Source of the DNA: Bacteroidales bacterium
GTDB taxonomy: Bacteria; Bacteroidota; Bacteroidia; Bacteroidales; VadinHA17
Length of the DNA: 62,884 nt
Direction: 5' to 3'
Assembly (NCBI GenBank): GCA_025454795.1
Contig: JALONT010000017.1
Coordinates: forward strand, 1-62,884
The stretch's first letter is position 1. The number at the start of each line of letters is the position of its first letter. The notes beneath the pieces are model-generated. The model made no database searches. It worked only from the letters and a program-made list of their open reading frames with translations, and was not told the DNA's origin. Positions 16,887 to 38,540 of the stretch are shown here, in pieces. A program made the translations under genes and the position numbers.

Positions 16887-16904
16887 TTTACATTTTATTG
16901 CTCA

Positions 16905-18245: not shown

Positions 18246-18375
18246 ATCAGTTTTTTATATTTAATGCAAGTATAGAATTTTAGGGCTTAATATTGGGTTA
18301 ACAAGTAGAATTCAAAAATTAATAATAGATTAACAACAGATGATCAATTGCTTGTTTCCCTTCGCTACATCTTAT

Positions 18376-21228: not shown

Positions 21229-21858
21229 AGTAAAGATAAATATGAAAATATTTCGGATACTCAAGAAAAATAATACTAAAATTAATTAATTAATTAAGAT
21301 TAACAATTAGTTAATTGATTTTACTTGAAGGTTATCTCTTTATAATTAACCTTATTTTTTTCCTGAATATTCATCAAATGTCTAAATATTTAAAATCTAA
21401 ATAACAAATAACTGACAAGAACATCAGCAGATCAAAATTTATAAATGATTCCATATATTAATTGAAAAATTCACTGTTAATCCTTTATTAATCCAAATCA
21501 TAGAGATATGTAACCATCTATATGCTGATAAAGAGTACATTATGAATTACTTAACGAAAAGAGAAATCTACCGTTTATATAGTATTTTCAAACAATCAGT
21601 GTTCATTGTTTAAACGATAATATCCCATAACTGACTGTTTAACAAGCACGAAGGATAGTATAGTATAGTTGTTTGGATATCTGTTCAATATTATTATAAT
21701 GGACCCTGTTAACTCTTTATTAATTCCTTAAATGATAAATTAATTCTTTAAATGATAAATTAGTAATAAATTCGTTCCATTAATAAATTGTATTATCTTT
21801 ATGTCTAAATATAACAATTTAATTTGTGCACTATTCGTTTAACTTTAACTTTTTTATT
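21229..21858. other. AT-rich divergent intergenic region with a 20-base tandem repeat
   Basis: About 630 bases separate two divergent T9SS genes and so must hold both promoters. A tandem 20-base repeat (taattccttaaatgataaat, then the same with one change) lies at 21721-21740 and 21741-21760. A near-consensus box TATCTTTA lies at about 21794-21801, upstream of the plus-strand gene. No open frame of interest was seen. Confidence 0.5.
21721..21760. repeat. 20-base tandem duplication
   Basis: Two head-to-tail copies match at 19 of 20 positions. They lie about 100 bases upstream of the start at 21859, where a regulator could bind twice, or they may be simple replication slippage. Confidence 0.7.
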
Positions 21859-23328
21859 ATGAAAAAAACTATTACTACTTTGATGACCTTTGGCCTGTTG
21901 ATGTTATCAACGGGAGTCATGGCACAGCAGTACGATGTACCCGGGACTTATGCTACCATACAGGCAGCATTCACAGCCATAAACGCTGACATTACCACAG
22001 ATCCCACAATTACTGCAGTAACCATTAATGTTGCGGAAGGAACGGTGGTGGAGCTTGCAGCTACCGAAGGTGTAATTCACCCTTCCGTTATGGTAACCAT
22101 CAAGGGTGCCGGAGCCGATAAGACGTTTATTGAATCTTTCCGGGCAGACAGAATCGTTCCCGGTGAAGCTGACGCCCTTGGCACACATTTCATCAATCTT
22201 ACCAACGTCGCCTCGGATAATGTTGAATACACTATTCAGGACCTCACCCTCAGGTATTTTGGGAGGGGGGATAATGAAAATGGCGGTGTGTTTGCATCAA
22301 GTACAACCAAAGCTTGGAACAATAAGATTACGATAACCAACGTTGTATTCGACAGAGTCGGGGCAAAACAGGGTGCTGTCTTGCACGGTGCAAATGGCAC
22401 ACATGAACTCATGATGGACAATTGCCTGATTATAGGTTGTGTGACCTACGGCGGTTCTGCATTCGGCGGGCCGATCACTGTGGATAACGGTGGAGTGATA
22501 ACGATCACTAACTGTACCTTCATAAATAATATCATGAATCCCTGGGATCACAGGTCAGCCGCTAATCCTATTGATGTGGGAGCAGGCCGTGGAGGAGTGA
22601 TCAAACTCAAGGACGGCGTGAATTCGGGTGTATACTCACCCCTCATTTTTACAATGGAGAACTGCGCATTCGTCAATAATCTGGTTGATAATAATGCTAC
22701 CACTGTATTTCCAGCTGTAAGTGACTCGATTCATCCTGTAATGAATATCAGCGTGACCGATACTGCTCTTTGTGAGCTTACCATTGTGGATAATATCTTC
22801 ATTGGGAACAGACGTGCAGGATATGAATTAACTGACGTAGACGTAGTGATTAACGTCCCATGGGAGAAGGTGATGTTGACTGCTGACGGAAACATAATGA
22901 ACAGCATGGTTTCGGCGGGAGGATATATGGATATTATCATTGATGGATTCATTGCCAACAGGGATTTTACCTATACGCATCCATTGATCCAATTTAACAT
23001 GGACGGGGATCTTCCAGCGCTGATTCCGGATGCAGAGGGAATTGGCCATGTGGAATACGCAGGTACTGGAGTGAGTGTAGATAAACTTCATGCAATAGAT
23101 GTTGCCCTTTATCCCAATCCTTCAAACGGCCTGTTTAATTTAAGGCTTCCCGACCGCATGAAGAACTCAACCTATGAGGTATACAGTATAACAGGCAGAC
23201 TTGTAAGGTCGGGAGTATTTTATAACAGGCAGGCAACTCTCGATTTGACAAACACCTCAAAAGGCATGTATCTTTTAAGAATCAAGAATGGTTCAGAGAC
23301 GAATACGAGGCGCATAATTGTAAAATAG
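21859..23328 (+). CDS. T9SS-secreted beta-helix protein (DUF4957/DUF5123-like)
   Basis: The start used is the ATG at 21859 (MKKTITTLMTFGLLMLSTGV), which begins a signal peptide cut after MAQ; the frame is open to 21826 but without a better start. The 489-residue protein opens YDVPGTYATIQAAFTAIN, a cap typical of secreted beta-helix proteins. It runs through short repeats with ITNCTFINN and TMENCAFVNN turns, and ends with a T9SS sorting domain (ALYPNPSNGLFNLRLP to RRIIVK). It is not closely related to the three paralogues at 10.8-16.0 kb. A surface glycan-binding or lyase role is possible but unproven. A rho-independent terminator follows. Confidence 0.75.
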   Translation: MKKTITTLMTFGLLMLSTGVMAQQYDVPGTYATIQAAFTAINADITTDPTITAVTINVAEGTVVELAATEGVIHPSVMVTIKGAGADKTFIESFRADRIVPGEADALGTHFINLTNVASDNVEYTIQDLTLRYFGRGDNENGGVFASSTTKAWNNKITITNVVFDRVGAKQGAVLHGANGTHELMMDNCLIIGCVTYGGSAFGGPITVDNGGVITITNCTFINNIMNPWDHRSAANPIDVGAGRGGVIKLKDGVNSGVYSPLIFTMENCAFVNNLVDNNATTVFPAVSDSIHPVMNISVTDTALCELTIVDNIFIGNRRAGYELTDVDVVINVPWEKVMLTADGNIMNSMVSAGGYMDIIIDGFIANRDFTYTHPLIQFNMDGDLPALIPDAEGIGHVEYAGTGVSVDKLHAIDVALYPNPSNGLFNLRLPDRMKNSTYEVYSITGRLVRSGVFYNRQATLDLTNTSKGMYLLRIKNGSETNTRRIIVK

Positions 23329-23874: not shown

Positions 23875-26505
23875 CTAATCTTTCCTGTTTTCAGGATGGT
23901 TTATTATATCTGCGAATGACCGATCGAATGGTTCATCATATAATTTAAAATAGTCCTTTGTGAATTTGTTATACACTCCTTTCGCGTGATTATGTTTGCC
24001 AAGAACCGTCAGGTTTTTGCATTTTAAACTAATAGCCTGTTCATCCATCGGGTCAAAAATTAAAATTGCATCTGCCAACTGGATCATGAACTCAGTATCT
24101 GAATCAAATATATCCTGATCTATCAAATGTGAAAGTTTATCTATTATCATATCTGAACATTCCAGTTTAAAATTATCAAGCCATTCATAATTATCGTTAC
24201 CAAGCAATGATCCCGTTTTTAAAATGCAAAGAAATTGCAGAAGACCTTCCTTTGATATCAATTTTTCTTGATTAATGCTTTTAATACAAAACCAATAATC
24301 ATTGTATACAACTGAATCATTAAATTCAATTCTCCAGTAACTAGTTTTGCGGGTAATTTTACAACTATCAATTTCCGTAAGCAGATTTTTCAACTTCGCA
24401 ATATTCACAGCACGGTTGTTTTTTGCAGTTTTCGCATCCATTGAGAACCAGAGCAATTCCGTAAGCATCGCTACTGATATCCCTTTATCCTTAATTGAGA
24501 AAAGAAAGATAAGCAGAAAAAGTTCTTTCAGCAGTGGTGAAAATTTTTTGGTAATATCATCTCCATGTTTGTTAATAATCTGAAATCCTCCGAAAAAAAG
24601 AATTGAATTTGGTTTTTTATTCGGCTTATCCGGGTGCAGGCTGTTTTGAGAAAGCATATCCTTCTCTGGTTTATCGTTCTCCTTGCCTGCTTTGGGAATT
24701 CTGGGAGGGCTCTCTTTCTTTCTTATATTCTTTAACAGGATGATAGCTATGGCAATAACAATAAGAAAATATAAAACACCAGGAACTATTTTCCCAAAAA
24801 TACTCCAGTCTTCATCAGTCTCTATGTCAGTAGAAAAAGGTGGTGAAGATATTTTATTAATCGTAATTTTTGTCTCGTTTTTGTCAGGGTTGGCTAAAGA
24901 AGTCATAGCAAAAAGTTTCTGGCTGCTTTGTGAGTAATATAAATCGCAATAAGAAAACTCATTGTCGAATAAATAGGGGAACTTATTTCCAAGTTTAATT
25001 AATTTTGGATCTGCCAGGGTTCCTCTTAGTAATTGTAAATATGTTTCATACTCAAAAATTGTTGTTGACAGAACATAATATGACTGATCTTTTTCATTTA
25101 TTATCATTGAATGTGCAAAATCTATGTTCTCCAAGGGTGCCTGAAAGTCATATATCTTGATAAATTTGTTTTCTTTTAAAGAAAAAGCCAGCAAGTCTGT
25201 GTAATGCTCTGGATTTATAATCTGATCGCCCGCTTTACTTCCAAATCCTCCGATAATATATAAAGTATCTGCATAATTCCCTATTGCTGCATGAATCCGC
25301 GGATGGAAAATATCTCCATGGGTCTGAATGGTATTCCATTGATTGTTTTTGAAATCGAATTGCTGAACAAGGTTATAATACTTGTGTTGACTATATCCAC
25401 CAAAAATATATAGAACGCTGTCAATAGCAGAGTAGTATGAATTGTGAAACCAGAATCGTTCTAAAATGTTTGTGCCCTGATAGATTTTTTCCCATTTTAG
25501 TTCTGAGAAGTTGAAATAATGTATTGTGTTAGTCCTTAAACTATAACAGATCAATCTATTTGTGATTGTATCGTAAAATACCCGGCTCCCCCTCATAAGG
25601 TCTGTAAACCTGGTGCTGTAATTCAAAGTTGTTATTGATGAATCATTTAGGACCGAGAAAATTTTCAACTGTTCATCACCTGCCATATAGACTCTTTCAT
25701 TACCCGGATCATAGCATACTGCAGCGAGTCCGTTCAGGTAAGTATCAAAACACCATTCCCAATAATAATACCTGGCTTTTATCCAGCCCGGATTATGAAC
25801 AATCCCTTTTTTGTTTGAGAGAATGTCTTTTACCTCATTACCGGTCATTTCATTGAGTGGAAAATAATGTCTGCATTTGCCTTTTTGATAAATCCTTATG
25901 TCTTTAATATTCATTCTCGGAACATCGGTTGTTTTTATTTGTTTGAAATCATTCCTGCCAAAAAATATTTTTATTTCCCCTGAAAAATCAACATTATGAT
26001 CTAGAATAACGGTATCGGGAGTGGAAAATTGAAGGGTATTATTCTTTTTACTATACTTGAGTCGGAGCTCAATCCACTTTTCATAGATGACCGGATTATT
26101 GTCAGGTATTGAAATAATCTTATGCGAAGGACCATAAACAACATGCAGACTGTGTGATTTCGGCCCATCGAAGATTATGTCAATAAGTCGATCATTTATA
26201 TCAGTGATACGTGCGATATAGCCAAAATTTACAATCAGACTATCACGTATTTGTATGCTGAACGATAACTCAAATTCATCATGAAATGAATAATAACCTT
26301 CCGGATTAAGAACAAGCATCGTACGCTGATCTTTTGAAAATGGTTGTCCGGCGAATTCCAAACCATATTGCTGCCCGAAAGAAGAGAAAGGAATAAATGA
26401 GCAAAAAGATAACAGTATAATAAATAAACTTCTTAAAAACCAGGATGTCGTAATTACCTGATATTTAGCAGTATAGATATTCATTAATACAAACTGACCA
26501 TTCAT
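23875..26505 (-). CDS. Membrane one-component regulator: LamG-like plus kelch-like sensor, one TM span, winged-helix/BTAD-like output
   Basis: The 876-residue protein opens with a signal/anchor (about 18-44; RSLFIILLSFCSFIPFSSFG). A LamG/concanavalin-like domain follows (about 48-225), then a kelch/galactose-oxidase-like beta propeller (about 245-560; VLYIFGGYSQHKYYN, HAAIGNYADTLYIIGGFGS). There is one membrane helix near 580 (IVPGVLYFLIVIAIAIILL). The cytoplasmic tail (about 640-876) starts SILFFGGFQIINKHGDDITK, continues LLKELFLLIFLFSIKDKGIS and LTELLWFSMDAKTAKNNRAV, as in OmpR/SARP-type winged helices, and ends in a helical BTAD-like part. It lies divergent from the SusC/SusD operon, so it is probably its activator, responding to an extracytoplasmic ligand. 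Confidence 0.7.
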   Translation of the reverse strand: MNGQFVLMNIYTAKYQVITTSWFLRSLFIILLSFCSFIPFSSFGQQYGLEFAGQPFSKDQRTMLVLNPEGYYSFHDEFELSFSIQIRDSLIVNFGYIARITDINDRLIDIIFDGPKSHSLHVVYGPSHKIISIPDNNPVIYEKWIELRLKYSKKNNTLQFSTPDTVILDHNVDFSGEIKIFFGRNDFKQIKTTDVPRMNIKDIRIYQKGKCRHYFPLNEMTGNEVKDILSNKKGIVHNPGWIKARYYYWEWCFDTYLNGLAAVCYDPGNERVYMAGDEQLKIFSVLNDSSITTLNYSTRFTDLMRGSRVFYDTITNRLICYSLRTNTIHYFNFSELKWEKIYQGTNILERFWFHNSYYSAIDSVLYIFGGYSQHKYYNLVQQFDFKNNQWNTIQTHGDIFHPRIHAAIGNYADTLYIIGGFGSKAGDQIINPEHYTDLLAFSLKENKFIKIYDFQAPLENIDFAHSMIINEKDQSYYVLSTTIFEYETYLQLLRGTLADPKLIKLGNKFPYLFDNEFSYCDLYYSQSSQKLFAMTSLANPDKNETKITINKISSPPFSTDIETDEDWSIFGKIVPGVLYFLIVIAIAIILLKNIRKKESPPRIPKAGKENDKPEKDMLSQNSLHPDKPNKKPNSILFFGGFQIINKHGDDITKKFSPLLKELFLLIFLFSIKDKGISVAMLTELLWFSMDAKTAKNNRAVNIAKLKNLLTEIDSCKITRKTSYWRIEFNDSVVYNDYWFCIKSINQEKLISKEGLLQFLCILKTGSLLGNDNYEWLDNFKLECSDMIIDKLSHLIDQDIFDSDTEFMIQLADAILIFDPMDEQAISLKCKNLTVLGKHNHAKGVYNKFTKDYFKLYDEPFDRSFADIINHPENRKD

Positions 26506-26671
26506 GTTTTGATGTAGTTTTTACCAGTTCTCATAATTGTAAACCAGGTTATTTACTTTTTGCCACTTAACTATGAAGTGTTATACTATCTCGTTTTTAA
26601 TTCCTGAATACAACTCTCCCCGCTTGAGAAAATATTTTCAGATTCCATCTGGTTTACTGGATATCTCATGG

Positions 26672-26693
26672 CCACAAAAATACAACTTTGTGG
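26672..26693 (-). promoter_or_regulatory. Inverted repeat overlapping a -7 box of the kelch regulator gene
   Basis: The arms ccacaaa and tttgtgg form a perfect 7-base inverted repeat around an 8-base spacer. On the minus strand this contains TATTTTTG (26675-26682), a full match to TAnnTTTG, about 170 bases upstream of the start at 26505. No TTTG is seen at -33. The overlap would suit autoregulation, which is inference. Confidence 0.4.
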
Positions 26694-26865
26694 TAATAAG
26701 TACATACCCTATATTGTAAAATAAGAATTAGAAAGAGGGATGTAATTTTTTTATATATAAGTTGTTACCAAAATTAAACAGATAAAAAACATCACTACTT
26801 TAAGATCAAAAATAGATATAAAAAATTGAATAACCCAACAATCTTGTTATGTCCCCATTTACAGG

Positions 26866-27100
26866 ATTAGTAACATCACCAAATTTGCAGGTCAGAATAC
26901 AATAGCTATGAAGCGACAGGGCATTATAAGATCTATTATTTCAACTTTTCCAGCATTGTGACACAATATAACGAAGTTTGGTTTCAGCCGGATTTTAATG
27001 ACAATCACATTGGCCTCAATTAGCGGTTAAGCAGGATTTGCAGGATTGCTGTTTTTAGTGAGAACGGTTTTTTAAGAACATTACTTAAAATAATAGTTTG
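26866..27100 (+). pseudogene. Decayed transposase N-terminal remnant, second copy
   Basis: The frame from 26866 reads ISNITKFAGQNTIAM, RQGIIRSIISTFPAL, then a stop at 26959-26961, HNITKFGFSRILMTITLAS, a stop at 27028-27030, and continues in another frame as RLSRICRIAVFSENGFLRTL. It aligns with the remnant at 4262-4462, so both derive from one transposase family. Two stops and a frame change show it is long dead. Confidence 0.6.
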
Positions 27101-27581
27101 TTATAATTTTATAATATATTGATAATGAGCATTTTGGTAATCCATAGAAATTCTGTGCATGTTATTAATGAATAACACTTTGCGTTCCATTTAAATTTAA
27201 AGAACTATTAACCTTGGAACACGATCTTTATGTTAATCTTTTATGATATCAACTTTAAATAAAATATTATTCATTTGGAAAATTACTCCTTAAATGGCAC
27301 ATATATAGGAAGTTAACCATTATAGACTTAAGGTTATTACAAAATATCTTTACAATTCCGGATTTTGTTAATCTTTTATTAACTTTTTATTTATCCGGAA
27401 ATCCATAAATTTATTCTAATTTTACATTTAAAGGTCTTTCTATTAAAAAATGATGGTTTAAGAAGAAAACTTACACCAGGTATTGACTGGTACTGAATTA
27501 AGTTTCCTACATATCATAATAATGGTAAGACCTAAAATTATAAAATAAAAAGTAAAAATTAATGCTATAATACCTTTTCCA

Positions 27582-30500
27582 ATGAAAAAGATTTATATGG
27601 TCTTACCGTTGTTTTTATTGTTTTTTTCCCATTTTATCTCTGCCCAGGAAAAGATTCTTAATGTTCAGGGCAAGGTAATCGACGATCGGGGAGAACTATT
27701 AATTGGTGTTAATGTATTTATTGAAGGCACAACCACAGGTATAATTACTGATATTAACGGCAGGTATTCAATCAATGTAAAACCCGGCGATCGGTTAACA
27801 TTTACATATGTGGGCTGCAAGTCCCAGACTGTTACCATTATTGATCAAACCACAATAAATATTACGATGGAATCCTCTGTTGTGAGTCTCGAGGATGTAG
27901 TAGTAGTTGGGTATGGCAAACAAAAAAAGGAAAGTGTTGTAGGTGCCATTGTACAGGCAAGTGGTGAAGATATCATACGATCAACCACTGGCAGTGCAGA
28001 CCTGGCTAATTCTTTGTCCGGAATGCTTTCTGGAGTTACTACTCAACAGAGAACCGGAAAACCCGGAGAATTCAATACACAAATATTGATACGTGCCCAA
28101 AACACCTGGAACAGTACTGCACCTCTGGTTCTTGTTGATGGCGTAGAACGGGATTTTAATGAAAGTAATCCGCATGAGATTGAAAGAATTTCAGTATTAA
28201 AGGACGCATCAGCAACGGCAGTCTTCGGAGTGAAAGGGGGTAATGGAGTTATTCTGATTACTACAAAAAGAGGGACAGAAGGGAAGTCTCAACTGTCGTT
28301 TGATGTAGAATCCACCCTTGGATTTCTCTCAAGGTTGCCTGAGACGGCCAATACCTATGAAGGGATAAAGAACAGGAACTATGCGATCCTAAACGAATTA
28401 GCATTAAATAATTCTTTATGGGGGCGTTATGTTCCAAGTGGGATCCTGGAATATTACAGAACCCAGGAATACCCTCAATACTATCAGGATTTTGACTGGC
28501 GGGCGAGAATGCTGAAAGATTTTTCAAAATCCTACAAATTTAATCTGGATGCTTCCGGAGGAACAAAGTTTGTTAAATATTTCACCTCAGTTGGTTATCA
28601 GTACGAAGGCTCACTTGCAAATACGGAAGATGTTGGACAGGGTTACAATCCTGAATTCAGATATGACAGGTTTAATTTCAGAACAAATCTTGATTTTAAC
28701 CTGACTAAATCCACTGTATTTTCAGTACAGCTCAGTGGTTACCTTGGTATTCAAAAACAACCTCCTGGTACACAGGATATCTATGTAGGATTCTTTGAAA
28801 AGCCCGGAGACGATCCAATATTTCAATACGAAGATGGCACGTATGGAGGGTCAATTAATCCATATTCCACGTATATGGGCGCTCATTCTTTTATTGATAT
28901 GAATCTCAATGGACAGGAAACGGATAAACGATCACAATTGAACAACGACTTTGTGTTGCAGCAGGACCTCAGCATTTTAACCAAGGGATTATCAGCCAAG
29001 GCCATGCTGTCATATGACAATAGTTTCTATACAAGTGGTCCGGATATAAACGTCGACAGACCACTCCAGAAATATATTGATCCTGCATATCTGAATGCAG
29101 GCCCGGACGCTGATATTGAGGATTTTACCACCTATCTATATCCCACGGACTACCAGCCCGCAACTAACTTTGACTATTACGAACGTGCAACGACTTATAG
29201 TACAGAGGATGTTTCAAATCAAAATAGTATCCTCAGGCAGTTATATTACCAGTTCTCCCTGAATTATGACAGGACCTTCGGCAATCACAGTATAGGGGCC
29301 TTGGCTTTGATGAGCAGGCAGGAAACAACCAGGGGCAGCAATTTTACCCGTTACCGGGAGGACTGGGTCGGAAGGATCAACTATGATTATAAAAAGATTT
29401 ATTTATTCGAGACTAATGCAGCCTATAACGGATCAGAGAAATTTGCCGGCAGGAAACAGGTTAAATCCGGCATGGCTGACAAAAGCTACCGTTTTGGTTT
29501 TTTCCCCTCCATGGCTGCCGGGATTTTGATCTCCAACATGAACTTTTTTAAGGAAAATGTGTCTTTTATGAATACATTGAAATTGAGATATTCCTATGGT
29601 ATCGTAGGGGTTGATGATGCACCCCCGCCTTGGCAATACATCAGCGACTATAAAATACTGTCCTGGACGCAATCATTTGGAAGACCCGGTGGTGAAGTGC
29701 ATTCAATCTATCCCTGGAGAATAGAGGGAGCGATTTCAAATCCCAATTTGCACTGGGAAGAAGTGAAAAAGCAAAATATCGCTCTGGAAGCGGGTGTTTT
29801 AAATAACCTGGTTTCCATAACTGCAGATTATTTCTGGGATCATCGTTATGATATCTTCATCGCTGCAGAAGACAGGATCATTCCGTTTTACTATGGAGCA
29901 ACCCAGCCACCTTCCGGCAATCTTGGAGAAACCAAATCCAAAGGATACGAGCTGGAACTGAATATGTCGAAAAAATTCGGGAATGGATTAAACTTATATG
30001 GAGGCCTGTCCTATACCCATGTCGAAGACATTGTGCTTAAAAGGGAAGAACCTGATTTACTTAAGGATTATCAGAAAGCTGTCGGATATCCCATTGATCA
30101 AACCAGAAGGATTAACAACACAGGAGTTATTCAGAGTTGGGATGAACTCTACACAGGTGTCTTAAACTTTGAGGAATCATTCTTGCGAAGGACGCTGCCC
30201 GGAGATTTCCGTCATCTTGATTTCAATGCAGATGGAATCATTGATTATTTTGATAGCGCTCCGGTTGGATTTCCTAACAGGCCTCATAATACGTATTCTT
30301 TCCGTTTGGGAGGAAAGTATAAAGGAATTGAAGTCTTTGCTTTATTTTATGGAGTATTTAATGTTTCAAGAAATGAAAACCTGATAGACCTGATCAATTC
30401 TGCTCCCCTGATCTATGTCGAAAGACTTGGTTACGCATTTTCACCCGAATTGGGAATCACAAAAGAGGCTTCTTTTCACCAGTTGAGATGGGATTGGCAA

Positions 30501-30761
30501 TTAAATAATTCCAACGAATATGTAGGCAATGGTTTTATTATTGATGCTTCTTATATGAGGTTAAAGAATCTTGAAATAGCCTATTCCCTGAGCCCGGAAG
30601 TTACCCAGAAACTGAAAGTCTCGCAGTGGAGAGTCTATGTTAAAGGATCGAACCTCCTTTACTGGTCGAAGCAATGGCAGGATCAGGAAATTGGCAACTT
30701 TCAAAGACAAAGTTTTCCCCTTGGAGGCAGCATTCAAATTGGAAGTAGAATTACATTCTAA
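27582..30761 (+). CDS. SusC/RagA-type TonB-dependent outer-membrane transporter 1
   Basis: The 1059-residue protein has a signal peptide (MKKIYMVLPLFLLFFSHFIS), a carboxypeptidase-regulatory-like domain at about 25-100 (VQGKVIDDRGELLIGVNVFI), a TonB-box/plug start LEDVVVVGYGKQKKESVVGA near 103, the plug signature VLKDASATAVFGVKGGNGVI near 205, and a beta barrel ending GSIQIGSRITF with a terminal Phe. SusC proteins form the outer-membrane pore beneath a SusD lid for glycan uptake. It is the first gene of a five-gene run with short gaps (20, 14, 41 and 38 bases). No SusD directly follows. Confidence 0.9.
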   Translation: MKKIYMVLPLFLLFFSHFISAQEKILNVQGKVIDDRGELLIGVNVFIEGTTTGIITDINGRYSINVKPGDRLTFTYVGCKSQTVTIIDQTTINITMESSVVSLEDVVVVGYGKQKKESVVGAIVQASGEDIIRSTTGSADLANSLSGMLSGVTTQQRTGKPGEFNTQILIRAQNTWNSTAPLVLVDGVERDFNESNPHEIERISVLKDASATAVFGVKGGNGVILITTKRGTEGKSQLSFDVESTLGFLSRLPETANTYEGIKNRNYAILNELALNNSLWGRYVPSGILEYYRTQEYPQYYQDFDWRARMLKDFSKSYKFNLDASGGTKFVKYFTSVGYQYEGSLANTEDVGQGYNPEFRYDRFNFRTNLDFNLTKSTVFSVQLSGYLGIQKQPPGTQDIYVGFFEKPGDDPIFQYEDGTYGGSINPYSTYMGAHSFIDMNLNGQETDKRSQLNNDFVLQQDLSILTKGLSAKAMLSYDNSFYTSGPDINVDRPLQKYIDPAYLNAGPDADIEDFTTYLYPTDYQPATNFDYYERATTYSTEDVSNQNSILRQLYYQFSLNYDRTFGNHSIGALALMSRQETTRGSNFTRYREDWVGRINYDYKKIYLFETNAAYNGSEKFAGRKQVKSGMADKSYRFGFFPSMAAGILISNMNFFKENVSFMNTLKLRYSYGIVGVDDAPPPWQYISDYKILSWTQSFGRPGGEVHSIYPWRIEGAISNPNLHWEEVKKQNIALEAGVLNNLVSITADYFWDHRYDIFIAAEDRIIPFYYGATQPPSGNLGETKSKGYELELNMSKKFGNGLNLYGGLSYTHVEDIVLKREEPDLLKDYQKAVGYPIDQTRRINNTGVIQSWDELYTGVLNFEESFLRRTLPGDFRHLDFNADGIIDYFDSAPVGFPNRPHNTYSFRLGGKYKGIEVFALFYGVFNVSRNENLIDLINSAPLIYVERLGYAFSPELGITKEASFHQLRWDWQLNNSNEYVGNGFIIDASYMRLKNLEIAYSLSPEVTQKLKVSQWRVYVKGSNLLYWSKQWQDQEIGNFQRQSFPLGGSIQIGSRITF

Positions 30762-30782
30762 ATCAGTTATAAGCCCAATAAA

Positions 30783-33700
30783 ATGACAAAAATGCTTAAA
30801 ATCTTAATTTTCTCTTTTACCCTGTTAGTACCATATACCATTGTCGCACAGGATAATTCAAAGATAACAATTAATGCCAGACTTACTGACAGTGAGGGAA
30901 TGCCTATTGGTTATGCAGAGATCAGGGCTAATGGTTCTAAGTCCGCACTTTCTGACGCGACTGGAAATTTTTCGATTAAGGTTCTTCCAGGTGTTCCTCT
31001 GATTATCGAAGCTGCTGATTATGAATCACTATTTATTACAGATCCTGAGAAGAAGCAGGATCAAACCATCTCCATGGTAAAGCTTCCTTACCAGATGAAA
31101 GGAAAAGACCTGGTAAATGTACCTTTCGGTACACTTAATAAGCAAAAGATCTCGGGGACAGTTTCAACGCTTGATCCTTCAGAGATACTGGACTATGATG
31201 CCAGACAAAGTACTGCCGAAGCAATCAGGGGAAGGATTCCCGGTGTGCTGGGTACTAATAATATCCATGCAATCGGTGATGCCCTCTTCGTTGTCGATGG
31301 TATCCCCACTTCTGAAATAGGTCTGGTAAACCTTAATGAAGTAGAACAGATTACAGTATTGCGTGATGCGGCATCCAAAATGCTATATGGAGTCCAGGCT
31401 GACAAAGGGATCATTCTGATCACCACAAAGAAAGGAAAACCTTTTGATAATCGGCTGAATTTTCGTGTTGAGACCGGAACCAGCCAACCCGTAAGATACC
31501 CGGATTATTTGACTGCTGCCGACTATAAGACTTATTATAATGAAGCACTCGCGAACGATTCACTTTATGGGATTATTTCAGTAGAAGAATTTAAAAAGAA
31601 CTACAACAGGTCGGGTGTAATTGACAGTACCCGTTCAGGGATTGACCCCATAAAATTTCCGGATGAAAACTATTACAATTCCAAATATTTCAGGAATCTC
31701 ACCAGTCATTTCGCTCTCTTTGGTGAAGCATCCGGAGGTAACGAGAACGTAAACTATTATTCAAGTTTCAGTTGGAGGCAAAATAATGGATTATTATTCC
31801 TTGGAAATGGAGCAGATGAAAGACATAATGTTTTCAATATACGTGGAAAGGTCAATTACAAGGTGAATGATTTCATACGAATGGACATGTCAGCCATGGT
31901 AAATTATGATCTGGATAAAGAGCCAAATTATGTAGGACCAGATTTCTGGGATCTGGCAGCAACATATCACCCTGATTACTTTCCATTGCTTATCCCTTCC
32001 TCCAGGGTAACAGATCCCCCCTTACTGGATGCAGCAATAATGGTTGACGGAGATAATTTATTGGGTGGGACCAACCAGTACAGATCAAATATTTATGGGG
32101 ATTTGTTCCTCGGTGGCATAAGAAGCAACCTAAACAGAACCCTTCAGGTTAAGCCAGGTCTGGAAATTGATCTTGGAGGAATTACCGAAGGATTAAGCGC
32201 CAGGATCACCCTGGCAGTAGATTTGAACAATAACATCGAAACTTTTCAGGATAACTCCTTTGCCATATATGAAACATCTTTCCCAAGAGATACACTGGGA
32301 CAGGAAAGCCTCGTCATTACTAAACTCGGACTTAACGAAAAGGAGGATAACAAAACCGTAGGAGATGCCTCTATGTACAGCAGGTATACTTACTCTGGAG
32401 TACTTAATTATGACCGGATCTTCGGGGATCACCAGGTAAGTGCACTGGCAATGGGATATTATGGTTTCTATAATATAACAGGCGAATATTTTCCGCAGAA
32501 GCATTTACATTTTGGAGTACGTGGAAACTATATGTATAAAAATAAATATATTGCTGAATTTACGGGTGTCTATGCAGGATCTTCCAGATTCAGTCCTGAA
32601 GCAAAATATGCATTTTCACCGGGCCTGTCCATAGGCTGGATCATGAGCGAGGAAGGTTTTCTCTCCGGAAGTTCATTCCTCAATTTCCTGAAATTAAGAG
32701 CCTCCTGGGGCATAATCAACACGGATCAAATGCTTACCCAGTACTACCTCTATAAGACAACAATAAATACAAGCACTACACTTAACTATGGCAACGGATC
32801 ATCTTCAAACAGGAGCCTCAGGATATCAAAACTGGGAAACAGCGACCTGACCTTTCCGAAAAGACAGGAATTAACTTTCGGCTTCGATGCTGTTTTAGCA
32901 GAGATCCTGCACCTGGAGTCGAGCTACTACATCAGTTCATCGATTGACAATATTGTTCAGCGGGATGATTATTATCCGGATATTGTTGGGAGTGTTTACA
33001 GATATGAGAATTATAACAGTTACCAGACCAGCGGACTTGATATTGGACTGAAGATTAAAAATAAAATGGGAGATTTCGGATACAATATCGGAGCTACACT
33101 GGTTACAGTTTCTGAAAAAGTTTTACAAATCGATGAATTGCCATACGAGGATGAGTACCTTAGAATGAAAGGAAAGCCTATGGATGCCATGTATGGACTG
33201 GTTTTCGATCGCTTTTATACAGAAGCAGATTTTGATTCCGATGGAAACCTGACCGAAGGATTACCGGTACCTGTTTTTGGAAGGGTCACTCCGGGAGACT
33301 TAAAATATATTGACCTTAATGAGGATTTGCTGATCAATGAAAATGACAGGAAAAATATCGGCGGTGTTATCCCTGATCAACAATTAGCCCTGGAAGTGCA
33401 TTTGAAGTATAAAGGATTTGAATTTTTTGCTCTCGGTTCACTTGAGTTAGGTGCAAACAGCTATGCAAGTGGCAATTATTACTGGGTAGACGGGAATGAT
33501 AAATATTCAAATGTCGTTACCGGCAGATGGACTCCCGGAAGCAATCAAAATGCCACATATCCCAGGCTGACAAGCCAGACCAGTTCCAATAATTTCAGAA
33601 ATTCTTCATTCTGGCTCTATAGTAAAGATGCATTCACCTTGCATGCAATGCAGATATCTTATAATATAAACACCCAAAAATTTACCTGGATTGATCGGGC

Positions 33701-33827
33701 ACAAATCTACGTCAGGGGCAATAATTTGATTACCATTTCTAAAGAAAAGGAGAAATTGCTGTTGAATACGGAAAGTGCTCCTCAAATGAGGGGTATTATT
33801 TCATTTGGTTTGAATGCTTCATTCTAG
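30783..33827 (+). CDS. SusC/RagA-type TonB-dependent outer-membrane transporter 2, divergent type
   Basis: This 1014-residue protein has a signal peptide ending IVAQ, a carboxypeptidase-regulatory-like domain (about 24-95; INARLTDSEGMPIGYAEIRA) and a plug domain (TAEAIRGRIPGVLG, VLRDAASKMLYGVQADKGII near 195). A barrel follows, ending GIISFGLNASF. In place of the usual VVVVGYG box, the plug is preceded by KDLVNVPFGTLNKQKISGTV, a variant seen in some SusC-like proteins. It starts 21 bases after the first SusC gene and ends 14 bases before a SusD gene, so it is probably the partner of SusD 1. Confidence 0.85.
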   Translation: MTKMLKILIFSFTLLVPYTIVAQDNSKITINARLTDSEGMPIGYAEIRANGSKSALSDATGNFSIKVLPGVPLIIEAADYESLFITDPEKKQDQTISMVKLPYQMKGKDLVNVPFGTLNKQKISGTVSTLDPSEILDYDARQSTAEAIRGRIPGVLGTNNIHAIGDALFVVDGIPTSEIGLVNLNEVEQITVLRDAASKMLYGVQADKGIILITTKKGKPFDNRLNFRVETGTSQPVRYPDYLTAADYKTYYNEALANDSLYGIISVEEFKKNYNRSGVIDSTRSGIDPIKFPDENYYNSKYFRNLTSHFALFGEASGGNENVNYYSSFSWRQNNGLLFLGNGADERHNVFNIRGKVNYKVNDFIRMDMSAMVNYDLDKEPNYVGPDFWDLAATYHPDYFPLLIPSSRVTDPPLLDAAIMVDGDNLLGGTNQYRSNIYGDLFLGGIRSNLNRTLQVKPGLEIDLGGITEGLSARITLAVDLNNNIETFQDNSFAIYETSFPRDTLGQESLVITKLGLNEKEDNKTVGDASMYSRYTYSGVLNYDRIFGDHQVSALAMGYYGFYNITGEYFPQKHLHFGVRGNYMYKNKYIAEFTGVYAGSSRFSPEAKYAFSPGLSIGWIMSEEGFLSGSSFLNFLKLRASWGIINTDQMLTQYYLYKTTINTSTTLNYGNGSSSNRSLRISKLGNSDLTFPKRQELTFGFDAVLAEILHLESSYYISSSIDNIVQRDDYYPDIVGSVYRYENYNSYQTSGLDIGLKIKNKMGDFGYNIGATLVTVSEKVLQIDELPYEDEYLRMKGKPMDAMYGLVFDRFYTEADFDSDGNLTEGLPVPVFGRVTPGDLKYIDLNEDLLINENDRKNIGGVIPDQQLALEVHLKYKGFEFFALGSLELGANSYASGNYYWVDGNDKYSNVVTGRWTPGSNQNATYPRLTSQTSSNNFRNSSFWLYSKDAFTLHAMQISYNINTQKFTWIDRAQIYVRGNNLITISKEKEKLLLNTESAPQMRGIISFGLNASF

Positions 33828-33841
33828 AAAATAATTTTGCA

Positions 33842-35524
33842 ATGAAAAATGATATTCTTTTAATAGCGATAGTTTTATCAGGATTGGTACTCAATTCCTG
33901 TGAAAAATTATTGGAACCGGCTTATGATAACAGTCTTTCTGATGATTTCGTCTGGAATAACCCAATTTATGCGGAAGGAGTATTACTCAGAGCATATACA
34001 AATATGCCCGGTTTATACAATTTCACTTCTGACATGGCAACCGACGATGCGGTAAGCAATGAAAAGGGAAGTGGTGCGAACAGGCTTTCTGATGGTCAGT
34101 GGTCATCACAGTACAACCCGATATCAAACTGGTCAGTCGCCTACTCAAGCCTTTTTTCTCTAAATTATTTTCTTGAAAATATGCACCGCGTTAAGTGGTC
34201 CTATAGAAGTACAGTTACTGATACATTGCATGCCCGGCGACTGAAAGGTGAGGCCTTCGGACTAAGGGCATGGTATCAGTTCCAATTGCTTCAGGGCCAC
34301 AGCGGGTTTGCCGACGGCGAACTGCTGGGATTTCCAATCGTTACAAAGGTCCTGAAAGGAGAAGATTTTAAAATCCCCAGGGGGAGCTATCAGGCCTGTG
34401 TAAATGCTATTTTATCCGATTGCGACAGTGCAATTAACTTACTGCCGGCTGTATATGAAAACATAAAAGATGTCGAAGTGGATAACGCTATGGGAATTAA
34501 ATACATCAATCGAATTAACGGACGTACAGTTCATGCATTAAAATCTCGTGTTTTGCTCTACGCAGCAAGTCCTGCTCACAACCCGGGGAATGATCTTTCA
34601 AAATGGGAAAAGGCCATGAAAGTTAGTTATGATCTGATCAATTCCTTGGGAGGTGTAGCCAAGCTGCCACCCAAAGGTATCGATTTTTATAAACGATATA
34701 CAGCGTCAACCTTATCGAAAGAACCCGAACTGATATGGTATTCAACCTTATCAACATCTTCATCTATGGAGGCAGATAATTTCCCTCCTTCGCATTTCGG
34801 GGATGGCAGACTTAACCCATCCCAGGAACTTGTTGATGCATTCCCTGCAACTGATGGATATCCTATTAAACTGTCCGCAGTATATAATTCTCTGTTACCT
34901 TATCAAAAAAGGGATGCACGGTTGGAAGCTTATATAATCTATAATGGCAGCAGTTTCAAAGGCAAACAGATCTACACACATACCGGAAATCCTATAGATG
35001 GGATCAATGCCCAGGAAACCTCCACGCGAACCGGGTATTACCTGAGGAAGTTTATGAATGAATCGGTATTGCTGGATCCCTTATCGGCATCATTACACTC
35101 TTACACATATATACGTGTAACAGAGGTATATCTGAACTTTGCTGAAGCAGCCAATGAGTTTGGAGGACCTACATATACTTATAATGGTATTTCTGCCTTA
35201 ACCGTGATGCAGGCTTTACGTAATAGAGCCAAAATAACCAACCATTCATATATAAATGGATTGGATCAGGCTGGACTTCGGGAGGCCATCCAAAATGAAA
35301 GGAGAATTGAGTTATGTTTTGAAGGGCACAGGTTCTGGGATATAAGAAGATGGAACCTGGTGAATGAAATGACACATCCTGTAAGTGGAATTTTCATGAA
35401 CCCTGATTTAACATACAAAATCCAGGAAGTCGCTCAACGGGCGTACATGCCACATATGATTTACGGCCCGATACCCTACAATGAAATACTTAAGATGGGT
35501 ATCAAACAAAATGATGGCTGGTAA
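33842..35524 (+). CDS. SusD/RagB-type outer-membrane lipoprotein 1
   Basis: The 560-residue protein has an SPII signal (LVLNSC near residue 20), the N-terminal SusD-like domain (SLSDDFVWNNPIYAEGVLLR), the TPR-containing core (LKGEAFGLRAWYQFQLLQGH near 132) and the C-terminal RagB/SusD motif (IQNERRIELCFEGHRFWDIR near 485). SusD proteins cap SusC and bind the glycan. It is immediately downstream of SusC 2 and followed after 41 bases by a small accessory lipoprotein. Confidence 0.9.
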   Translation: MKNDILLIAIVLSGLVLNSCEKLLEPAYDNSLSDDFVWNNPIYAEGVLLRAYTNMPGLYNFTSDMATDDAVSNEKGSGANRLSDGQWSSQYNPISNWSVAYSSLFSLNYFLENMHRVKWSYRSTVTDTLHARRLKGEAFGLRAWYQFQLLQGHSGFADGELLGFPIVTKVLKGEDFKIPRGSYQACVNAILSDCDSAINLLPAVYENIKDVEVDNAMGIKYINRINGRTVHALKSRVLLYAASPAHNPGNDLSKWEKAMKVSYDLINSLGGVAKLPPKGIDFYKRYTASTLSKEPELIWYSTLSTSSSMEADNFPPSHFGDGRLNPSQELVDAFPATDGYPIKLSAVYNSLLPYQKRDARLEAYIIYNGSSFKGKQIYTHTGNPIDGINAQETSTRTGYYLRKFMNESVLLDPLSASLHSYTYIRVTEVYLNFAEAANEFGGPTYTYNGISALTVMQALRNRAKITNHSYINGLDQAGLREAIQNERRIELCFEGHRFWDIRRWNLVNEMTHPVSGIFMNPDLTYKIQEVAQRAYMPHMIYGPIPYNEILKMGIKQNDGW

Positions 35525-35565
35525 ACCAATTAAAGCTTTGATTGAGATATATTAATATAATGATC

Positions 35566-36639
35566 ATGAAAAATCTTACAAAATTCTGTCTCATAATTAC
35601 CCTGCTACTCAGTGGTTGTGATAAATTCGATCCATTGATTTCAAGCAGGGATAATTCCTTCTCTGACTTTGATTATACGGCTGTATATTTCCCCTTGCAA
35701 TATCCCACCAGGACAATTGACCTGTCAACTGATGCCCGGATCGACAATTCAGTCGACCTGGAGCACAGGTTTCATATAGGAATTTCCATGGGTGGTGTCT
35801 ACAAAAATACGAAGGAGAGAAAAGTTCGTTTTGAATATGATCCCAGTCTGCTGCCGGATAATCTACGTGCGTTATCAAGCAGAGGGAAAACAATTGATTC
35901 AATCATTCTCTTACCTTCGGCATATTATGAACTGATCTCATCCAGCGGTTCGTTCGTTACCATCCCGGAGCAGCAATTCACAGGACTTATCGAGGTGCAG
36001 CTAAATGATGCTTTTTTTGAGGATTCCCTCTCTTTGTTGAATACCTATGTGATTCCGCTAAAGATCACTGAAGCTATGGATATCGATTCTATCTTAAAAG
36101 GCCTGCCTGTGGTCCCTGATCCTGTAAAGACTAGCAGCATACACTGGGATGCCAATGTTCCCCCCCGTGACTTCACCCTTTTTATGGTTAAATTCATTAA
36201 TGCCTACCATGGAGATTATCTGATAAGGGGGGTCGATTATAAACTTGACAACATTGGCAACAGGATGGATGCAACTGTATACAGGGACAGGTATATAGAA
36301 AAAAATAAGATTGTTAAACTTATAAGCGGAAGTTTAACGGAAGTAATAACAAACCATACGGGAAGCCGGATATCTGATGACGGTAAATATAGATTATTGC
36401 TTGATGTCGACAAATCTGGATCGGTCAGTGTCGAATCAATGCCTGGTGCGCTATTTGTAGCCAGCGGATCAGGCACTTTCCTGACTAGAGATAAGAGTAC
36501 CGAGGTATGGGGAGGAGAATCAAGAAGAACTTTTCAATTGCATTACAATTATCTGAATGGCACAGAAAATCACGAGGTTTTTGATACTATTGTATTTCGG
36601 CACACAGGAACAGTGCTGGAATGGTTCACACCATTTTGA
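35566..36639 (+). CDS. DUF1735-like (BT_3987-type) surface lipoprotein
   Basis: The start used is the ATG at 35566 (MKNLTKFCLIITLLLSGC), which yields a clean SPII lipoprotein; an ATG at 35560 is equally possible. The N-terminal half (FDYTAVYFPLQYPTRTIDLS, HRFHIGISMGGVYKNTKERK) resembles the DUF1735/BT_3987-like domain found on surface glycan-binding proteins, and the C-terminal half is beta-rich (GDYLIRGVDYKL, SVESMPGALFVASGSGTF). Its place between two SusD genes suggests a surface glycan-binding (SGBP) role in the same uptake complex. The 357-residue length fits that class. Confidence 0.7.
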   Translation: MKNLTKFCLIITLLLSGCDKFDPLISSRDNSFSDFDYTAVYFPLQYPTRTIDLSTDARIDNSVDLEHRFHIGISMGGVYKNTKERKVRFEYDPSLLPDNLRALSSRGKTIDSIILLPSAYYELISSSGSFVTIPEQQFTGLIEVQLNDAFFEDSLSLLNTYVIPLKITEAMDIDSILKGLPVVPDPVKTSSIHWDANVPPRDFTLFMVKFINAYHGDYLIRGVDYKLDNIGNRMDATVYRDRYIEKNKIVKLISGSLTEVITNHTGSRISDDGKYRLLLDVDKSGSVSVESMPGALFVASGSGTFLTRDKSTEVWGGESRRTFQLHYNYLNGTENHEVFDTIVFRHTGTVLEWFTPF

Positions 36640-36677
36640 GAATAGTAATCCTAACTTTCTATTAATATATAAATGAA

Positions 36678-38540
36678 ATGGGAATAAAGAGATACACAAT
36701 ACAGGCAACAATTATAGCAATGCTTATAGTTTCTGCCTGCGAAGATTACCTGGAAAGAACTCCGGAGGCCGGAGCCACCATTCAGGATGTATTTACTACA
36801 TATAATGATTTTCAGGGCTTTATCGATCCGCTTTACGATGATGTCCTGGATTTTAACCGGGATCATAATGCATTAAGTATGAATTGGGGAGGTGAATGTT
36901 TATACACATGGGACAGGCATGCGACGTTCAGAGCTAATAACGGAGATTACCGCTTCCTGGTCGATATAGGATTAAATACCTTGTATTCCCATTATTATAG
37001 CTCGACAATGAATGGTTTGGGTACTGTGAGGATTGGAATGTGGCAGAAAGCCTGGCCCAACATCCGTGTCTGTAATGTTGCACTGCAGAATCTCAAGTAT
37101 CTTTCAGATGCCACAGAAGAGGAAAAGGAACTTATTAAAGCACAGGCACTCTTTTTCCGGGCATATTTTCATTGGGAGATCATTCGTGCATTTGGTCCGA
37201 TGGCTTATATTGACACGGTATTGACAGGAGCAACAACTGAAGAATTAAGGAAACCGAGATATTTCGAATACAAAGGGGTAGAAGGATGGCAGGCTACTGC
37301 AGAAAAGATTGTGAAGGACTTTGAAACTGCTGCAGAATTATTACCAGTTGATTGGGATTTAACGGGACCTGGTCAGCTCGTTCCCGGAACAAACGTTGGA
37401 AGGGCGACCAGGGGTGCCGCATTGGGATTTGCTGCAAAAGTACTGTTATACGCCGGAAGTCCGCTGATGTCTGATTATTCAGGGAAAGGTCCCATTGTAG
37501 ACTTAGAATACATGGAACGTGCAGCTGATGCGGCATGGGAGGTGCTGGCAATGGATATTGACCAGGGAGGCAGTAGCTATCAGCTGACACCCTGGAAAGA
37601 TTATCTGAGCCAGTTTCAAAGAAAGGATGGGTCCTCCCCTTATACGCTGGAGACCGTATTCTACAAACCTGTCTCTTATGAAAATGATGAGTACCAGGAC
37701 AATAGGGCACTGATTGATCAAAGATTATTCGATAACAGGCTCGCCCGCACCTACACACCCGATGTTACGACATTTGGAGGCGCGGGCCAGACTGCTCCGC
37801 ATAATGAAGGTGTAACTCAAAACTATGTGGACCTGTTTGAAATGGCAGACGGGACCAGGTATCAGCAGGCATACGATAATGACAATACAAGAAGATGGGA
37901 GAACAGGGATCCGAGGTTCAGAAAATCGATCTATGTAGACAGGGATACGGCCGGTATTTCACCAAATACAATACTTTACATGTATGACGCTGGAAAGACA
38001 AAAGGGGATCGTTCTCTGTGCCCTACTTCCTACGTGGTTCACAAATACTGGCCCAGGGGCATTAATAAGATGGATGGTCAATATAATGGATTTCGCTTGG
38101 CAACACCATTGATAAGACTTGCGGACGTATACCTGATGTATGCTGAAGCAGTAAATGAGGTCTACGGACCCTCAGGTTCATCCCCGGAATCCAACGGATT
38201 AACGGCTATAGATGCAGTCAACCATGTACGTGCAAGAGCAGGTATGCCTCCTGTTACCGCCAATCCAACCGGTTATAGTGATTTCAGGGAACTGATCCAA
38301 AACGAACGTGCCGTAGAACTATGCTTTGAGGGTCATTACTGGTTTGACACCAGGCGGTGGTACACAGCCCACACGATGTCGAAAGCTTTACAGGACCTGA
38401 ATTTTGACAAGGATCACACAAACTTTGAAAGAGTAACCGCTTGGACACGTGTATTTGTTAAACCCAACCATTACTGGTTGCCATTGCCTCAAGATATGAC
38501 CTTAATATACCCGGAAATGTATCAGAATCCGGGATGGTAA
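36678..38540 (+). CDS. SusD/RagB-type outer-membrane lipoprotein 2
   Basis: This 620-residue protein has an SPII signal (LIVSAC near residue 21), an N-terminal SusD-like part (YLERTPEAGATIQDVFTTYN), the core motif LIKAQALFFRAYFHWEIIRA near 150 and the C-terminal RagB motif (IQNERAVELCFEGHYWFDTR near 540). It differs strongly from SusD 1 and is the last gene of the run. In gene order its natural partner would be SusC 1, which would make the inner three genes (SusC 2, SusD 1, DUF1735-like) a nested unit. Confidence 0.9.
   Translation: MGIKRYTIQATIIAMLIVSACEDYLERTPEAGATIQDVFTTYNDFQGFIDPLYDDVLDFNRDHNALSMNWGGECLYTWDRHATFRANNGDYRFLVDIGLNTLYSHYYSSTMNGLGTVRIGMWQKAWPNIRVCNVALQNLKYLSDATEEEKELIKAQALFFRAYFHWEIIRAFGPMAYIDTVLTGATTEELRKPRYFEYKGVEGWQATAEKIVKDFETAAELLPVDWDLTGPGQLVPGTNVGRATRGAALGFAAKVLLYAGSPLMSDYSGKGPIVDLEYMERAADAAWEVLAMDIDQGGSSYQLTPWKDYLSQFQRKDGSSPYTLETVFYKPVSYENDEYQDNRALIDQRLFDNRLARTYTPDVTTFGGAGQTAPHNEGVTQNYVDLFEMADGTRYQQAYDNDNTRRWENRDPRFRKSIYVDRDTAGISPNTILYMYDAGKTKGDRSLCPTSYVVHKYWPRGINKMDGQYNGFRLATPLIRLADVYLMYAEAVNEVYGPSGSSPESNGLTAIDAVNHVRARAGMPPVTANPTGYSDFRELIQNERAVELCFEGHYWFDTRRWYTAHTMSKALQDLNFDKDHTNFERVTAWTRVFVKPNHYWLPLPQDMTLIYPEMYQNPGW

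Follow-up and report, generated by a model that had tools for sequence, protein, structure and literature searches.

The genome of a Bacteroidales bacterium (VadinHA17; assembly GCA_025454795.1) contains a gene for an 876-residue transmembrane regulator, which we read as a membrane-anchored one-component activator. An exported sensor would be joined to a SARP-type tail that would act on TTAA repeats at 11-bp pitch and on predicted targets nearby, and we put the probability of this reading at about three in four. The gene lies on contig JALONT010000017.1, whose 62,884 nt were analyzed as a whole (hereafter, the window). It is divergent from an operon of the order SusC-SusC-SusD-x-SusD across a gap of 1,076 bp; a preliminary description of this DNA had given the same operon order and a gap of 1.1 kb, and both are confirmed.

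Domain architecture and the SARP-type tail

The DNA-binding end of SARP activators is known from antibiotic-producing Streptomyces. AfsR, DnrI and ActII-ORF4 belong to these activators, and EmbR is similar in fold. To place the cytoplasmic tail of the regulator, we aligned 37 tails of its family with 16 BTAD proteins. The two profiles aligned over 229 columns (hhalign probability 99.7, E = 3.1e-25, score 171.1), whereas all controls stayed at background (reversed profile 13.1, best of 30 column shuffles 23.3, SusD 17.9, SusC 10.7). The BTAD proteins came from another phylum, whose genomes were searched with the Pfam model of that domain (16 of 17 used, L107 dropped). The 37 tails (alignment A4) combine 33 long relatives (alignment A3) with the short members L014, L015 and L061 and the 3' part of L086. 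A3 itself excludes these short members, the split open reading frame (ORF) L086, the second copy in L088, the fragments L016-L018 and four distant matches (L090-L093).

When single tails were searched against Pfam (E up to 1), BTAD (7 of 37 tails) and Trans_reg_C (5 of 37) were the two commonest families. The tail profile's best match among PDB sequences, a PhoB-family regulator, covers the winged helix (E = 0.016), and the third, a tetratricopeptide repeat protein, covers the helical part (E = 0.073). Foldseek, run on the predicted tail model despite the tool's warning that low-confidence models yield meaningless matches, placed AfsR chains in the top three positions against the PDB (E = 0.04-0.08, probability 0.96-0.99). 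A paralogue in the same genome (L011, contig C51) reaches 20.8 bits for BTAD, the Pfam cut-off being 22.1. Since this cut-off is a detection threshold and not a biological feature, we file the tail as a divergent SARP-type output and not as a classical SARP. At the family level, sequence comparison gives good support to a divergent SARP-type unit made up of an OmpR-type winged helix and a BTAD domain, and the winged-helix plus BTAD-like tail of the preliminary description is thereby borne out.

Hydropathy of the regulator peaks around residue 23 (1.89, signal-peptide-like) and at residues 573-591 (3.05, transmembrane (TM) helix); a third, lower peak at residue 663 (1.67) falls within the predicted winged helix. 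The Lys/Arg-rich stretch LLKNIRKKESPPRIPK stands directly C-terminal of the TM helix, so that the protein should be oriented N-out/C-in with a cytoplasmic C-terminus. A Pfam scan of the regulator (E up to 1) returned kelch-type models only, with kelch above its curated cut-off, and the family profile of the kelch region matched PDB kelch propellers (E = 1.2e-22). The propeller probably spans about residues 250-570. ORF, hydropathy and Pfam results thus agree with the 876-residue chain described earlier, with its exported ectodomain, kelch propeller, single membrane helix and cytoplasmic tail. The LamG-like domain claimed in the same place can be kept only tentatively: Pfam finds no LamG match in the window regulator itself, but the N-terminal block of the 33 long relatives aligned with 24 LamG domains from four genomes over 67 columns (probability 64, score 33.9), above the best of 20 shuffles (13.4) and the reversed profile (12.7). 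For this alignment 24 of 30 LamG loci were used, and L064 and L072 were kept in the block though they differ there.

Across the family, a hydropathy peak starts 45-78 residues before the tail in 32 of the 33 long members (791-931 aa), and kelch models match 31 of them (E up to 0.1). L064, L072 and the Parabacteroides distasonis protein (L103) have no kelch; they carry Laminin_G_3 at about residues 396-562, behind another N-terminal domain. The three short members (470-511 aa) have a small ectodomain that no Pfam match identifies, and each NCBIfam model matches at most 4 of the 33 long relatives. A tail that stays constant while the outer domains are exchanged would be expected of a sensor/output design.

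Direct repeats at 11-bp pitch as candidate operators

Close copies of one repeat element (TTGTTAATCTTTTATTAACT, CTGTTAATCCTTTATTAATC, CTGTTAACTCTTTATTAATT and TTGTTAATCTATTATTAATT) precede the SusC operon, a gene for a protein with a type IX secretion system (T9SS) tail, and an operon of GFO/IDH/MocA oxidoreductase and 3-keto-disaccharide hydrolase genes; we therefore predict these units as the regulon (Table 1). A 21-mer pattern allowing up to 2 mismatches had five matches in the window, two of them overlapping, where 0.02 were expected. In the 3.29-Mb genome, a 20-mer pattern (up to 1 mismatch) found four sites, none of them farther than 6 kb from the regulator gene and each on the strand of the next gene, and the backward-pattern control found 0; the pattern was written from the window sites, so that their recovery is circular and the informative part is the absence of sites elsewhere.

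SARPs bind direct repeats whose units follow one another at 11 or 22 bp (excerpts of PMC10936776), and heptamer repeats with spacers of 4-15 nt are also described (excerpts of PMC10972967). The 11-bp pitch of SARP sites was chosen before testing. In the window's own gap, 12 heptamer repeats have pitch 11, where shuffles give 4.1 on average, and there is no excess at 10, 12, 21 or 22. In the 29 regions (10.6 kb) that precede family genes, pitch-11 heptamers reach 12.6 per kb, compared with 2.4-7.0 at other pitches from 8 to 24; the respective values are 8.1 and 3.6-6.0 in other intergenic regions of the family loci, and 7.3 and 5.4-7.3 in random loci.

Many of the pitch-11 sites have a TTAA core in common. 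The 18 divergent regulator regions contain 21 TTAA pairs at exactly 11 bp, spread over 12 regions, compared with 0-6 at the other distances from 4 to 21, 10 at 22 and 9 at 23; dinucleotide shuffles of these regions had a mean of 2.7 and a maximum of 10 (0 of 300 reached 21). A further 139 intergenic regions of the family loci, whose sequences had not been inspected when the core was chosen, gave 58 pairs at 11 bp and 3-22 at other distances from 4 to 35. An 11-bp pair was found in 12/18 regulator and 6/59 control divergent regions (p = 5e-6). Among SusC promoters, 9 of 14 within 8.5 kb of a family gene carried such a pair in comparison to 2 of 26 unlinked ones (p = 0.0003, uncorrected for species composition, in which the two sets differ). 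The linked set overlaps the divergent regulator regions, and the unlinked promoters come from three genomes of the same genus (G000, G011, G029) and are not known to be linked to a family gene. They represent 26 of 30 loci, after removal of the window's own (L225), a partial one (L237) and two with under 80 bp of upstream sequence (L215, L226). The operator counts cover 36 loci (without L090-L093) and the linked SusC set 35 (also without L014). On the Persicobacter plasmid pPP5, two TTAA triples occur at a GC content of 0.43, where 0.02 are expected. We conclude that 11-bp TTAA direct repeats are statistically supported candidate sites beside family genes.

The preliminary description had instead pointed to an inverted repeat on the likely promoter of the regulator, which is not supported. 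The gap region has nine imperfect pairs of this kind, among them the repeat at 26665-26700 (79% complementary over 14 nt), and a stricter scan of the gap found none; the direct repeat, unreported there, is the better DNA signal. An element, TATTTTTGTGG, which we take to be of the Bacteroidota TAnnTTTG-like type, is common to the window (26665-26700, -177) and a second locus of the genus (L012, upstream of 13978, -85), in both cases before the regulator start. A blastn search with a 12-mer overlapping it gave a weak result (E = 0.06). A scan with a sigma-70 pattern (15 sites, 8.2 expected) was uninterpretable. In P. distasonis, TGTGCCA/TGTGGCA-type heptamers at 11-bp pitch lie between the family gene and a Gfo/Idh/MocA gene (L103:12930-13013). 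Alternate heptamers are also inverted repeats, so this may be another kind of repeat, and we keep it as a lead.

Table 1. Predicted features of the regulator gene, candidate operators and neighboring genes in the window
Feature	Coordinates	Strand	Basis or remark
Transmembrane regulator, 876 aa	23875..26505	-	ORF; Pfam kelch; TM; family comparison
Signal-peptide-like segment, residues about 20-45	26371..26448	-	hydropathy; alignment
LamG-like domain (tentative), residues about 46-245	25771..26370	-	hhalign probability 64, score 33.9
Kelch repeats (Pfam), residues 324-472	25090..25536	-	E = 2.6e-19
Single TM helix, residues 573-591	24733..24789	-	hydropathy; peaks of relatives
OmpR-type winged helix, residues about 637-725	24331..24597	-	hhalign; Foldseek (weak model); secondary structure; PhoB-family match
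BTAD-like helical domain, residues about 736-871	23893..24300	-	hhalign; BTAD matches in 7/37 family tails, not the window's
Candidate operator TTGTTAA-N4-TTATTAA-N4-TTATTTA, TTGTTAATCTTTTATTAACT	27365..27396	+	11-bp pitch; TTAA pair ends about 197 bp before SusC
Candidate operator CTGTTAACTCTTTATTAATT	21706..21726	+	about 100 bp before 500-aa T9SS gene
Candidate operator CTGTTAATCCTTTATTAATC	21474..21494	+	about 330 bp before 500-aa T9SS gene
Candidate operator TTGTTAATCTATTATTAATT (element from 18317)	18316..18336	-	about 70 bp before GFO/IDH/MocA gene
Second TTAA-N7-TTAA pair before GFO/IDH/MocA gene	18284..18304	-	
SusC/RagA transporter	27582..30761	+	TIGR04056, 721.9 bits
SusC/RagA transporter	30783..33827	+	465.6 bits
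SusD	33842..35524	+	
BT_3987-like_N (DUF1735) + DUF5627 protein (x)	35542..36639	+	
SusD	36678..38540	+	
500-aa T9SS-tailed protein	21826..23328	+	predicted target
962-aa T9SS-tailed protein	18376..21264	-	similar to GH99-like protein at 1166
GFO/IDH/MocA oxidoreductase	16905..18245	-	predicted target operon
3-keto-disaccharide hydrolase	16152..16886	-	same probable operon as GFO/IDH/MocA gene

Proposed mechanism and alternative explanations

We propose that the exported LamG-like and kelch part senses a periplasmic ligand, most likely an oligosaccharide imported by the neighboring SusC/SusD system. The signal would pass the single TM helix, probably via dimerization or rearrangement. In the cytoplasm, the SARP-type tail would bind the candidate direct repeats of TTAA-centered heptamers at 11-bp spacing, and it may recruit RNA polymerase in the manner of its homolog AfsR, which contacts sigma R4 and the beta flap (excerpts of PMC10936776). 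The SusC-SusC-SusD-x-SusD operon, the T9SS gene at 21826 and the GFO/IDH-3-keto-hydrolase operon would be the targets.

It is unlikely that the TTAA repeats are AT-rich or promoter-related sequence, or belong to a different regulator (for instance an OmpR-type response regulator), instead of being the family operator. OmpR-type regulators can also use phased direct repeats, and the regions are indeed AT-rich (GC 0.29-0.31). Some 11-bp TTAA excess is seen in the random control loci as well (21 pairs, 5-16 at other distances), and four of the five named plasmid loci (L103-L106) lack TTAA triples, which occur in pPP5 only. On the other hand, the excess stands at 11 bp and not at 9, 10, 12 or 13, none of the 300 dinucleotide shuffles reaches it, the same-genus unlinked SusC promoters carry the pair in only 2 of 26 cases, and pPP5 has its two triples against an expectation of 0.02. 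We regard it as very improbable that the regulator controls only its own gene or unrelated genes, with the SusC operon under another system and the adjacency coincidental. SusC genes are abundant, with 13 matches in the window's genome (E up to 1e-50), and SusC/D also occurs in 11 of 40 random regions; yet the divergent arrangement is found again in L012, the 11-bp pairs set linked apart from unlinked SusC promoters (9/14 vs 2/26), and the four genome-wide pattern sites all surround the regulator gene. Release of the tail from the membrane by proteolysis before it acts, as opposed to action while anchored, is improbable too. The about 45 mostly hydrophilic residues between TM helix and winged helix (592-636) could be accessible to a protease, but the tail-TM distance of 45-78 residues in 32/33 long relatives would also be shown by a tethered activator.

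Further points weigh against a membrane-anchored SARP-type activator acting on TTAA repeats, besides the random loci and the plasmid loci already named. The whole-genome pattern was derived from the window sites, and the TTAA core was picked after inspection of the regulator-upstream regions. The pitch-11 excess in the window's gap is marginal on its own, being reached by 10 of 200 shuffles, and the SusC promoter comparison carries the uncorrected species difference. Only one TTAA pair was found in all 11 co-directional regulator regions, and the pitch-11 heptamer repeat was not seen in several family promoters (e.g., L014, L073-L076). Regarding the protein, neither BTAD nor Trans_reg_C was detected by Pfam in the window regulator itself, and none of the 526 Foldseek matches of the tail model reached E = 0.001 or better. 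Both single-sequence models are of low confidence (predicted local distance difference test 46.9 for the tail and 34.8 for the ectodomain), and one long relative (L087) has no TM peak before the tail.

Gene neighborhoods, known systems and distribution

Of 40 family loci, 21 have SusC or SusD at a distance of up to 8.5 kb, as do 11 of 40 regions drawn at random from the same contigs (Fisher P = 0.04). Within the same distance, the glycoside hydrolase family GH92 occurred at seven family loci and no random one (P = 0.012), GH99-like genes at 5 vs 0, GFO/IDH at 4 vs 0, 3-keto-hydrolase at 2 vs 1 and sulfatase-like genes at 3 vs 1. Eight of the 40 loci are shorter than 19 kb, which lowers the case counts, and the GH92 of L012 was left out as lying beyond 8.5 kb. 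We also searched Pfam with the nearest genes of at least 150 aa on each side (65 genes from 34 loci) and with 68 control neighbor genes; among the best 25 of 104 and the best 25 of 110 families, the former gave TonB-plug 6, GH92 4 (N-terminal domain), GH99 3, GH125 1 and DcuC 2, and the latter plug 2 and SusD 2.

The survey links the family to the catabolism of glycans and nutrients; about half of the loci have SusC/D. The preliminary description had proposed to check whether homologues stay beside SusC/SusD genes, and this holds in part: the enrichment is moderate, and in some of the other relatives GH92, GH99-like, GH125, GFO/IDH or DcuC-type genes adjoin. The GH92, GH125 and GH99 neighbors suggest alpha-mannosides as substrates for part of the family. 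The short kelch-less forms, together with the DcuC-type carriers among the nearest neighbors (2/65), suggest that L014, L015 and L061 form a second subgroup with another kind of substrate. L015 also has SusC/SusD.

In a second genome of the genus (G010; L012), the regulator is likewise divergent from an operon, of the order SusC-SusD-SusC-SusD-x. On pPP5, the family gene is accompanied by GH92, a TonB receptor, SusD and a GH71/99-like gene, and on pPP4 it directly follows SusC-SusD. In P. distasonis, Gfo/Idh/MocA and sugar isomerase genes come after it. In the window, the 3-keto-disaccharide hydrolase and GFO/IDH/MocA genes (16152-18245) are 18 bp apart, and a similar pair stands beside the family member of L060. 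The GH99-like label lies below the Pfam cut-off (27.5 vs 33 bits). The window has no Rfam match at gathering thresholds and no tRNA.

Comparison with known systems shows both likeness and difference. As in SARPs, a winged helix is followed by BTAD, aligned end to end, and the candidate sites are direct repeats at 11-bp pitch; unlike in SARPs, the unit forms the C-terminus, preceded by an exported sensor and a TM helix, scores below the Pfam BTAD cut-off, and is found in Bacteroidota beside nutrient-uptake genes rather than in antibiotic clusters. ToxR and CadC have a cytoplasmic N-terminal OmpR-type winged helix, one TM segment and a C-terminal periplasmic sensor. The regulator likewise joins an OmpR-type winged helix to a periplasmic sensor via one TM segment, but in reversed order, with the sensor N-terminal and the winged helix C-terminal, and with BTAD added. 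DUF6377 proteins, which we take to be of the SusR type, gave an hhalign score of only 15.0 against the tail profile (8 of 10 matches used, in stretches that may end inside the DNA-binding domain). Two of them stand directly before SusC genes (G054:C76, G054:C14).

Three Bacteroidetes-specific regulator types have been proposed for polysaccharide loci, namely SusR-like proteins, hybrid two-component systems (HTCS) and extracytoplasmic function (ECF) sigma/anti-sigma pairs (excerpts of PMC3878776, also for the following comparisons). SusR is described as membrane-bound, with a sensor in the periplasm and a C-terminal cytoplasmic DNA-binding domain, and as acting on SusC/D operons, and the regulator is predicted to share this layout of sensor, membrane segment and C-terminal DNA-binding domain; predicted SusR motifs, however, have 67 or 77 bp between repeats, whereas the candidate sites described here have an 11-bp pitch. 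HTCS also combine a periplasmic glycan sensor and a DNA-binding output in one chain, but histidine kinase, receiver and AraC are absent among the regulator's 10 listed Pfam families (E up to 1). ECF sigma/anti-sigma pairs share the membrane-spanning control of SusC/D operons; they consist of two proteins, and the regulator is a single protein with its own DNA-binding domain. The preliminary description spoke of a different, one-step design. The domains do differ, but one-step is not new in itself, as SusR is also one-step (excerpts of PMC3878776).

Outside subscription journals and preprints, the titles and abstract beginnings among the matches listed describe no kelch/SARP or membrane-spanning SARP regulator in Bacteroidota, and the words "kelch" and "SARP" occur in neither PMC3878776 nor PMC10766802, both on regulation. 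Within the literature searched, a SARP that spans the membrane, lies beside nutrient-uptake genes and has an identifiable candidate operator at 11-bp pitch therefore appears to be new. On balance, we favor the view that Bacteroidota hold a further class of nutrient-uptake regulators, transmembrane SARPs with interchangeable sensors, one constant output and tandem 11-bp repeats that are mostly TTAA-cored. An identifiable candidate operator would make the regulons of such a type predictable from sequence; the pattern singles out three transcription units in the window's genome. It would also mean that SARP-type output is found in a membrane sensor as well as in soluble activators, and if this is true, the SARP mechanism of antibiotic clusters also serves as a signal output wired directly across the membrane. 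The varied sensor domains over one output would be natural material for chimeric sensors.

A search with the whole regulator gave matches in 4 of 60 genomes, one of which is its own. With a tail profile (A2, built from six sequences), matches at E up to 1e-8 were obtained in 16 of the 294 genomes sampled across the order and in 9 of the 296 sampled across the phylum; both counts include the own genome. Four weak phylum matches in three genomes (best E 5e-10 to 7e-12) were excluded from later alignments. No relatives were found in the viral contigs searched, and a stretch of a Pseudoruminococcus contig with 27% identity to query residues 246-336 alone was not taken as a relative. Copy number within a genome reaches six (G277). 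The second family member of the window's genome (L011, G000:C51) is 36% identical to the regulator and lies at the end of a 4-kb contig; the gene beside it is GH99-like and 69% identical to window positions 1166-2458. Another locus (L088:6553-11047) has a tandem of family genes, coding for 683 and 853 aa, whose ends overlap.

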